From Oscillospiraceae bacterium (lineage in GTDB: Bacteria > Bacillota > Clostridia > Oscillospirales > Oscillospiraceae): DNA of 53,406 nt. Position numbers and translations under genes: made by a program. Shown here piece after piece: positions 26,637 through 27,461 of this stretch. Below the pieces are notes generated by a model that did not search any database, was not told the DNA's origin, and saw nothing but the letters and a program-made list of their open reading frames with translations. Within the stretch, counting starts at the first letter, position 1. Every line of letters starts with the position of its first letter. Where the stretch lies: contig JAGASJ010000023.1 of NCBI GenBank assembly GCA_017621795.1, positions 1 through 53,406 of the forward strand. Direction: 5' to 3'.

Positions 26637-26675
26637 TGTCATTGCGAGGGAGCGAATGCGACCGTGGCAATCCGT
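26637..26675 (+). repeat. Palindromic repeat copy A (TGTCATTGCGAG..GTGGCAATCCGT)
   Basis: The ends ATTGC/GCAAT are complementary. It lies 6 bases after the gamma-CA stop. Same family as 26801-26838, 27183-27220, 51301-51339 and, with changed stem bases, 26721-26764. Confidence 0.75.
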
Positions 26676-26682
26676 AACCCCT

Positions 26683-26716
26683 GCCGCCATCAGGCGGCGC
26701 GGCACTTTGCGCCGCA
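26683..26716. repeat. Pair of GC-rich hairpins between repeat copies A and B
   Basis: GCCGCC-ATCA-GGCGGC, followed by GCGGC-ACTTT-GCGCCGC. They fill the space between the two repeat copies and may belong to the same composite element. Confidence 0.45.
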
Positions 26717-26720
26717 AGAA

Positions 26721-26764
26721 AACGGATTCCTACGACCAGTTTGCGAACTGGTCTCGGAATGACA
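26721..26764 (-). repeat. Palindromic repeat copy B (variant, inverted)
   Basis: Read on the minus strand it runs TGTCATTCCGAG ... GTAGGAATCCGT. Compared with copy A, the stem ATTGC/GCAAT has become ATTCC/GGAAT, a compensatory double change. The core ACCAGTTCGCAAACTGGT is itself a hairpin. Confidence 0.7.
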
Positions 26765-26800
26765 AAGGTGTACGGTGCTGCTGCGATTACCGAAGCCCCC

Positions 26801-26838
26801 TGTCATTGCGAGGGCGCTTCGCGCCCGTGGCAATCCGT
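26801..26838 (+). repeat. Palindromic repeat copy C, left of the GIY-YIG gene
   Basis: TGTCATTGCGAG ... GTGGCAATCCGT with hairpin core GGGCGCTTCGCGCCC. It is an exact reverse complement of copy D at 27183-27220 over 38 bases. Confidence 0.85.
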
Positions 26839-26877
26839 CTCTTAAAAACCTGCAAAATAGTGTAAGGACAAGATAAG

Positions 26878-27171
26878 ATGCACTACTATGTTTATATTCT
26901 TTCCAATTCTACAAATACAGTAATTTATACAGGTGTTACCAATAACTTGCTACGCCGGGTCTATCAGCACAAAAACAAGATGGATCCAAAAAGCTTTTCT
27001 GCAAAGTATAATGTTCATAAGCTGGTATTTTTTGAAGAAACAAGTGATGCCTATTCCGCAATTTCGAGAGAGAAGCAAATTAAGGGATGGAACAGAAAAC
27101 GAAAGAACGAATTGATCAACAAACAAAACCCGCAGTGGGTAGATCTGTATGACAGTATCCTTGGCGAATAA
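26878..27171 (+). CDS. Small GIY-YIG nuclease-domain protein
   Basis: A 97-residue single-domain protein of the GIY-YIG endonuclease superfamily (UvrC N-terminal/YhbQ-like subgroup). Motifs: YYVYILSN (the GIY strand), VIYTGVTNNLLRRVYQHK (the YIG strand and catalytic arginine) and the metal-binding glutamate in ISREKQIKGW. No DNA-binding domain is fused. AT-richer than the neighbours, preceded by a modest AAGGA site. It lies alone between exact inverted copies of a palindromic repeat, next to two tRNA genes, which suggests a selfish or repeat-mobilising unit; host repair roles remain possible. Confidence 0.9.
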   Translation: MHYYVYILSNSTNTVIYTGVTNNLLRRVYQHKNKMDPKSFSAKYNVHKLVFFEETSDAYSAISREKQIKGWNRKRKNELINKQNPQWVDLYDSILGE

Positions 27172-27182
27172 CGTCATAGGAA

Positions 27183-27220
27183 ACGGATTGCCACGGGCGC
27201 GAAGCGCCCTCGCAATGACA
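27183..27220 (-). repeat. Palindromic repeat copy D, right of the GIY-YIG gene
   Basis: Exact inverted counterpart of copy C, starting 12 bases after the GIY-YIG stop. C and D together bracket the gene in a 420-base unit (26801-27220). Confidence 0.85.
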
Positions 27221-27275
27221 GTTCCTTCGGACGAAAGGCGCCGGTAAAATGTGATCGTATTTACCGTAAAAATGT

Positions 27276-27310: not shown

Positions 27311-27385
27311 TGGTGACCCGTACGGGAATCGAACCCATGTTACCGCCGTGAAAGGGCGGTGTCTTAACCGCTTGACCAACGGGCC
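27311..27385 (-). tRNA. tRNA-Glu (anticodon TTC)
   Basis: A 75-base cloverleaf on the minus strand with encoded CCA. Acceptor GGCCCGT pairs with ACGGGTC; anticodon stem CCGCC/GGCGG closes the loop CTTTCAC; T-loop TTCGAATC. It abuts tRNA-Met with no spacer. Confidence 0.95.
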
Positions 27386-27461
27386 TGGTAGCGGCAATCT
27401 GACTTGAACAGATGACATACCGGGTATGAACCGGGTACTCTACCAACTGAGTTATGCCGCC
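27386..27461 (-). tRNA. tRNA-Met (anticodon CAT)
   Basis: A 76-base cloverleaf on the minus strand ending in encoded CCA. Acceptor GGCGGCA pairs with TGCCGCT; anticodon loop TTCATAC; D-arm ACTC..GAGT; T-loop TTCAAGT. The overall sequence resembles elongator tRNA-Met rather than initiator. A lysidine-modified Ile2 tRNA also reads CAT in the gene, but the acceptor stem favours Met. Confidence 0.9.

Follow-up and report, generated by a model that had tools for sequence, protein, structure and literature searches.

A GIY-YIG nuclease gene between inverted hairpin repeats

The window, by which we mean the whole stretch of 53,406 nucleotides that was analyzed, contains at positions 26,878–27,171 of the plus strand an open reading frame for a 97-amino acid, single-domain GIY-YIG nuclease, identified by the Pfam model PF01541 (64.5 bits), by invariant residues and by an AlphaFold2 model. 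The gene is free-standing, with a hexapeptide gene on one side and tRNA genes on the other. It lies between two repeats, C (26,801–26,838, plus strand) and D (27,183–27,220, minus strand), that are reverse complements of each other without mismatch across 38 bases; in the extended arms (26,800–26,844 and 27,177–27,221) complementarity is 96% across 45 nt. Repeat C, recognized by its DNA fold and a detector match, consists of an unpaired TGTC tag, an ATTGC/GCAAT outer stem, a GC-rich inner hairpin, and a CC tail. Its fold (−10.7 kcal/mol, z −2.7) comprises a 5-bp outer stem, an internal loop, an inner stem of approximately 6 bp, and a 3-nt loop. The tag of C points away from the nuclease gene, as does that of D, which was recognized by sequence comparison and the detector. 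With its exact 38-bp inverted ends and an arrangement shared by homologous loci, the 420-bp segment formed by C, the gene, and D (26,801–27,220, plus strand) is a putative autonomous unit. The tRNA genes (27,311–27,461, minus strand) belong to the context outside this unit: ARAGORN places tRNA-Glu at 27,311–27,385, starting 90 nt past D, with tRNA-Met next. The GC content of the nuclease gene is 0.364, compared with 0.527 for the window and 0.561, 0.556, and 0.528 for the three neighboring genes measured. A preliminary description of this DNA had reported a GIY-YIG gene between exact 38-base reverse complements, AT-richer than its neighbors, with two tRNA genes about 90 bases downstream, and the sequence comparison, the PF01541 match, the GC values, and ARAGORN bear out each of these points.

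The same description listed two further members of the repeat family, A and B, just upstream. A and B prove to be the two ends of one composite of approximately 130 bp (26,637–26,766, plus strand), in which A (26,637–26,675) is the TGC-type end and B (near 26,720–26,766) the TCC-type end. On the evidence of its whole-unit fold and of further genomic copies, this gene-less dimer is a putative non-autonomous unit of the C/D family. The whole unit folds with −36.2 kcal/mol (z −5.0; none of 200 shuffles equally stable) and the B region alone with z −4.0, whereas the stability of A alone is not unusual (z −0.9; 36 of 200 shuffles equally stable). In the predicted folds of A and C the TGTC is unpaired, and both A-B and C/D are tag-outward pairs. 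Further copies or parts of A-B, 84–93% identical, are found on other contigs of the same genome. A zero-mismatch repeat pattern has 19 matches in this 2.03-Mb assembly, which is 89% complete, and the reversed control has none, so the repeats are not due to chance. Four repeat copies (contigs C18, C19, C39, and C60; loci L005, L006, L011, and L012 of genome G000) lie within approximately 100 bases of contig ends. Repeats therefore seem to break the assembly, which biases copy counts and gene absence in drafts, and gene loss may look commoner in draft genomes than it really is.

Family placement of the nuclease

Residues Y6, Y17, G19, R27, H31, E65, and N84 are invariant in all 54 aligned sequences (53 of the 80 homologous loci described below, plus the window), and we take these to be the likely catalytic residues, with the roles assigned to them in work on I-TevI. 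The window protein thus has both the domain and the catalytic Y, Y, R, H/K, E, and N of the GIY-YIG superfamily. Its AlphaFold2 model (pLDDT 94.4) matches the UPF0213 protein 1zg2 first and Slx1 next. Among solved structures, the UPF0213 single-domain GIY-YIG proteins (PDB 1zg2 and 1ywl) match it best in both sequence and fold; the similarity to 1zg2 is distant (25% identity), and no NCBIfam model scored above cut-off for the window protein. Slx1 is a eukaryotic protein whose partner is Slx4. It shares the GIY-YIG fold, and the titles of entries 6seh and 7cq4 mention branched and 5'-flap DNA; it differs in having no known link to repeats. In PHROG, the nuclease weakly matches a homing endonuclease (E 0.005). 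None of the PADLOC models matched it, and a phage origin of the unit was set aside, no phage record having matched at E 1e-8. The gene is a putative member of COG2827 (UvrC-like small endonucleases). In passages of PMC1839093 this label is given to three small genes of Caulobacter crescentus, a species counted as CGTC-positive in passages of PMC3733652.

Tagged hairpins accompany homologous nuclease genes

The best 80 of 570 genome contigs with a confirmed relative of the nuclease were chosen by protein similarity alone. Together with the window, 75 of these loci carry one of 17 phylum-level labels and six carry none. A strict hairpin detector (GTCAT, a stem of at least three further bases, a loop of 3–45, the reverse-complement stem, ATC) found a hairpin within 400 nt of the gene in 73 of 80 loci, and on both sides in 55; for random positions in the same loci the means were 7.7 and 0.2 of 80, respectively (200 draws). 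Hairpin density was 3.62/kb near the gene and 0.19/kb farther out. Two detectors with a scrambled complement gave 5 and 9 near matches, compared with 227 for the true detector, and a third gave 83, since for stems such as TCT its scrambled version is identical to the true complement. Six of the seven loci missed by the strict detector carry a variant hairpin of the GTCGTTGC...GCAATC-like form, and L096 is the sole locus of the 80 with neither form. With a relaxed detector accepting any stem of at least 6 bp, the contrast between near and far was poor in the 80 genomes (0.88 versus 0.46/kb) and good on plasmids (3.30 versus 0.87/kb); the strict version was retained.

The association is also constant in genomes related to that of the window. 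Hairpins accompany 19 of 19 high-scoring copies found in the genus and order (13 on both sides) and 15 of 15 in 293 class genomes drawn regardless of repeats (12 on both sides). These tallies cover all strong and weak matches (19 and 25 in the first search, 15 and 17 in the second), minus the window's own copy and the second fragments of two broken genes. The weak matches, low-scoring GIY-YIG genes that are UPF0213-like by reading, behave differently from the window-type nuclease: one hairpin was found beside 1 of 25 and 2 of 17 of them, respectively, and hairpins on both sides in 0 of 42 loci. Most of the 14 control genes examined first come from genomes where TGC-type repeats are few or absent, so the stricter control is a paired test in the nine genus genomes that have both kinds of gene, where the high-scoring gene is flanked in 9 of 9 and the other gene in 1 of 9, on one side. 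Given these controls, a link between this GIY-YIG subfamily and tagged hairpin repeats is close to certain. REPs favor noncoding DNA, and it could be argued that hairpins such as terminators or intergenic debris would gather by chance or composition around any small AT-rich gene. We find that reading scarcely credible: in noncoding DNA alone the density is still 6.7-fold higher near the gene (6.72 versus 1.00/kb), and it is contradicted also by the other GIY-YIG genes and by the way stem type co-evolves with the nuclease, as described below.

Among plasmid records, 32 matched the nuclease and 14 loci were examined, of which 10 are flanked by the strict detector. L162, L164, L165, and L170 fail it, three of them showing other hairpins by eye; at L170 a single hairpin is visible by eye approximately 200 nt downstream. 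On a 1.76-Mb Neorhizobium replicon, two of four pattern matches are clean palindromes by reading, and these are the pair beside the nuclease gene; on a 718-kb Rhizobium plasmid, six of nine matches lie within approximately 0.6 kb of the nuclease gene. On Planktothrix agardhii plasmid p1 (L167), the nuclease gene has an MmeI-type restriction-modification gene on one side and the DISARM gene drmA on the other, and the hairpins around it are of two stem types. A separate sequence, G244:C1:8126–8481, holds a 35-base GTCATTGCGA...GCAATC hairpin five times in direct orientation, on one strand, over approximately 360 bases; it is a tandem array and not a set of dispersed repeats.

Pair anatomy, arm covariation, and stem type

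Of the 52 loci with a hairpin on both sides, counted from the stop codon, 30 have a nearest pair whose tags point outward from the gene (p = 8.6e-7 against an expectation of 25%). In 35 of 52, the end of the upstream hairpin and the matched start are 15–40 nt apart; in 25 of 52, the downstream hairpin follows the stop codon by no more than 9 nt. This spacing and orientation indicate that the gene is tightly packed into a tag-outward pair, as in the gene-less A-B pair.

Covariation of the hairpin arms was measured by pairing each head (GTCATxyz) with any downstream tail (xyzATC followed by C or T), complementarity not being required. Of 326 heads from 87 of 94 loci, in which hairpins within one locus are not independent, 256 were complementary to their tails; shuffling gave a mean of 58.9 and a maximum of 84. 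The set contains ten stem types, TGC, TCT, CCT, TCC, and CCC among them. Mapped as TGC versus other on a nuclease tree of 95 rows (84 stem-labeled; built from few columns, with 50 of 92 inner branches open), stem type changes 8 times, compared with means of 27.3 when labels are shuffled freely and 23.7 when they are shuffled within phylum. There are 4 changes among the 34 rows outside Bacillota and plasmids (11.2 shuffled) and 4 within Bacillota (13.6 shuffled), and in every test none of 300 shuffles was as low as the observed value. Stem type tracks the nuclease clade even within a phylum, so the repeat type follows the nuclease and not the host alone. Across the class, how many TGC-pattern repeats a genome has does not follow the gene. 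Of 293 genomes, 18 match, that of the window included, and G166 is the only other one to combine many TGC repeats with the gene. Such counts are uninformative because other lineages carry other stem types, and only the local flanking test is informative.

Recognition of the hairpins by the nuclease is strongly supported by these sequence comparisons. It had been suggested in the preliminary description that the nuclease may act on the hairpins of this repeat family; the cross-phylum flanking, the covariation, and the co-evolution of stem type all favor that suggestion, and hairpin binding, cleavage, and the position of the cut are steps that we infer. Recognition is also what would be expected of a hairpin-processing or housekeeping nuclease that does not mobilize the repeats, acting for instance in Slx1-like resolution of REP cruciforms or in autoregulation through hairpin-bearing transcripts. 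Covariation and co-evolution, which show recognition most directly, are compatible with such an enzyme, as are the fold similarity to Slx1 and the SOS box found on one of the three Caulobacter COG2827 genes according to passages of PMC1839093. We nevertheless consider it unlikely, since it leaves unexplained the position of the gene between repeats, often no more than 9 nt from one of them, and likewise the absence of gene and repeats as a block in near relatives and the hundreds of repeat matches in some gene-less genomes, both reported below.

Presence and absence of the unit in related replicons and genomes

On plasmid AZO_p3 of Azospirillum lipoferum 4B (L161), the nuclease unit lies between sufB and sufC, which are 617 bases apart, with three strict hairpins and a fourth, imperfect one by eye. 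It is thus within the suf Fe-S assembly operon, with both sufB and sufC undisrupted. Three Azospirillum relatives (92–94% identity) have 91, 87, and 129 bases between sufB and sufC and no nuclease gene. In Shinella, the gene is found on two plasmids, accompanied by two strict hairpins on one and three on the other, with more by eye, and two other Shinella plasmids (approximately 85% identity) are approximately 600 bases shorter at the site and have no gene. Gene and hairpins are therefore present or absent as a block, in one Azospirillum replicon with and three without, and in two Shinella plasmids with and two without. At 85–94% identity to these relatives the junctions are not base-exact, and no target-site duplication is readable from the empty sites. 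The surroundings of the window's nuclease gene were rejected as an empty-site comparison: hexapeptide, tRNA, and MatE genes occurred together as they do in the window in 0 of 29 other loci examined.

In the genus of the window, 14 nuclease loci fall into nine neighborhoods, as judged by open reading frames of at least 60 amino acids within approximately 1.5 kb (some contigs being shorter), and not at one fixed site. Sites are shared by G018, G022, and G034 (with G031 having one neighbor of that site), by G016 and G025, and by G017 and G027. In G039, an order relative, both neighbors found at the G018 site have counterparts, 35% and 65% identical. The nuclease gene and its neighbors are collinear between genus relatives, and several genomes have two or three nuclease copies. 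The shared sites and the G039 neighbors imply vertical inheritance of the gene over some span, and the gene also occupies many different sites. A homing-type element, whose nuclease cuts repeat-free targets so that the unit is copied by gene conversion and the hairpins are boundary or target remnants, would account for block presence and absence, and GIY-YIG is a homing endonuclease fold, in keeping with the weak PHROG match. It is nonetheless improbable, given nine neighborhoods among 14 loci of one genus, the many-copy gene-less repeats, and the nature of the window protein, a free-standing single domain of 97 amino acids at whose locus no intron, intein, or extra DNA-binding domain was seen.

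Repeat presence is related to gene presence in the genus: repeats occur in 13 of 14 gene-bearing genomes and in 11 of 23 gene-less ones (Fisher p = 0.011; Mann-Whitney p 0.0024). The gene-bearing genome without the repeat pattern is G013, whose nuclease copy is broken. Among genus genomes at least 90% complete, those with the gene have repeat counts of 0, 23, 52, and 267; of those without it, seven have no repeats and the other two have 17 and 193. The two gene-less carriers are G002 (193 matches, 98% complete) and G019 (17 matches, 100% complete), in which no such GIY-YIG gene was found. Nor was one found in G098, G123, and G167, from one distant genus of the same class, which have 40–84 repeat matches at 99% completeness. 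A search there for another repeat-flanked enzyme yielded no candidate nuclease in the two of six repeat regions read for open reading frames, and in both of these the repeats lie between ordinary genes. Either the repeats outlive the gene in such genomes or something else moves them.

Broken copies of the nuclease gene were seen in several genomes. A Chloroflexota copy (L123; JAKAKJ010000085.1, 2,234–2,509) has a stop codon within the nuclease match and is probably a pseudogene, and G013, G034, and G290 likewise have broken copies. In G013, which is without the TGC-type repeat, three CTC-stem hairpin matches lie upstream of the broken gene, on one side, at an exact spacing of 90 nt (L036, contig C18).

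Proposed working of the unit

The unit is probably a minimal autonomous element of approximately 420 bp, consisting of a REP-associated GIY-YIG nuclease and two inverted tagged hairpins, in which the nuclease recognizes the hairpins and helps them to spread. A minimal mobile element had been proposed in the preliminary description, and the block presence and absence, the flanking across phyla, and the relation between repeats and gene all argue for it; some repeat-rich genomes without the gene count against it, and movement is the part that we infer. Of the two refuting outcomes named in that description, a constant site for the gene and repeat numbers unrelated to its presence, neither was seen. 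Mobilization of the hairpins by the nuclease is nevertheless the best explanation of the evidence and the one we favor. The gene-less hairpin dimers of approximately 130 bp would then be non-autonomous relatives of the gene-bearing element. When the hairpin, with its unpaired TGTC tag, AT-leading stem, and CC tail, is extruded on single-stranded or cruciform DNA, the nuclease may recognize it and nick it at or near the junction of tag and stem. GIY-YIG nucleases have, to our knowledge, no strand-transfer activity of their own, so integration would need host repair, by which the released or broken hairpin pair could be copied or rejoined elsewhere. The gene-bearing pair would be a substrate of the nuclease in cis, and gene-less pairs would be substrates in trans.

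Relation to known repeat systems

Tagged palindromic repeats occupy the intergenic DNA of many bacteria. As described in passages of PMC3733652 (Di Nocera et al. 2013), CGTC-tagged REPs have a CGTC or TGTC tag, an AT stem start, and a CCA tail; they occur mostly as tag-outward (HH) dimers, are spread over several phyla, and include the Neisseria dRS3 and Rickettsia RPE repeats. Acetobacteraceae, Bartonellaceae, and Brucellaceae are families from which such repeats are reportedly missing. For the GTAG superfamily of tagged REPs the proposed enzyme is RAYT, but the CGTC superfamily was left without an enzyme, its members being said in the same passages to "apparently lack a dedicated transposase." The window hairpins share with CGTC REPs the unpaired (C/T)GTC tag, seen in the folds of A and C, the complementary AT at the stem start followed by a CC tail (ATTGC/GCAAT, then CC), and the predominance of tag-outward dimers (30 of 52 pairs, as well as A-B and C/D). 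At some Chloroflexota and sphingomonad loci GT, AC, or GC replaces AT at the stem start, by eye. The four published CGTC families have an 8–9-bp stem and a 4–5-nt loop (PMC3733652), whereas in hairpin C an internal loop separates an outer stem of 5 bp from the inner stem; lacking the 8–9-bp stem, the window hairpins fall outside those four families. Hairpins beside the nuclease gene in Neisseria and Azospirillum resemble the published ones.

As in REP-RAYT systems (REPtron/REPIN), a dedicated enzyme gene here lies between repeats of which many gene-less copies exist too, and in both cases repeats can be found in genomes that lack the gene. The REP-RAYT analogy drawn in the preliminary description is therefore apt for the arrangement and does not extend to the enzyme: REP-RAYT has GTAG-tagged repeats and an HUH tyrosine transposase, whereas the tag here is another one and the nuclease fold is unrelated. 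That precedent (PMC3733652) raises the alternative that a RAYT or other Y1 (HUH) transposase moves the repeats and that the nuclease gene is a passenger, which is very improbable in light of the Y1 loci themselves. No Y1_Tnp candidate was found in the window's own assembly (89% complete), and among 23 Y1 (RAYT-type) transposase loci of related genomes a repeat is nearby in two and on both sides in none, so that no Y1/HUH gene flanked by repeats was seen; passages of the 2013 survey likewise report no Y1 transposase flanked by CGTC repeats (PMC3733652). The unit also resembles MITEs and insertion sequences, in that short gene-less units with inverted ends occur beside a gene-bearing relative, and it differs from them in having no transposase; from the empty sites in Azospirillum and Shinella, whose junctions are not base-exact, no target-site duplication could be read.

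The titles and opening lines of abstracts listed by searches of the open-access literature do not connect GIY-YIG proteins with these repeats, and GIY-YIG together with dRS3 gave no match there. The term GIY is absent from the text of PMC3733652; PMC9465073 has GIY-YIG and "repetitive extragenic palindrom" in separate table rows and a reference, and passages of further papers, PMC1839093 among them, make no such link. As far as these searches went, a repeat with a dedicated enzyme is a known kind of system to which the GIY-YIG class of enzyme is new.

Recurrence of the pairing across many phyla suggests that the nuclease is the missing partner of a widespread repeat class, and it names a candidate enzyme: a small stand-alone GIY-YIG protein, commonly annotated simply as "GIY-YIG nuclease family protein." If this is right, those proteins would gain a function and the repeats a source, in a transposase-free type of element that, at approximately 400 bp, is small enough for complete biochemical study. 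The evidence is evenly poised on the broader proposal of a route independent of RAYT, by which ancient cross-phylum elements of approximately 400 bp spread when a transposase-free GIY-YIG nuclease reads the hairpin, co-evolves with it, and drives its copying via host repair. Such a route would explain the CGTC repeats that now stand as orphans, among them dRS3 of Neisseria and RPE of Rickettsia. Because stem type tracks nuclease clade, matched and mismatched pairs of enzyme and substrate are ready-made. Among the plasmid-record loci, the repeats that flank the gene in Neisseria are of the dRS3 type. In the 2.17-Mb Neisseria gonorrhoeae sequence filed as a plasmid (L163; NZ_CP119140.1), which is evidently a chromosome, twelve dRS3-type hairpins lie within the 600 bases around the nuclease gene.
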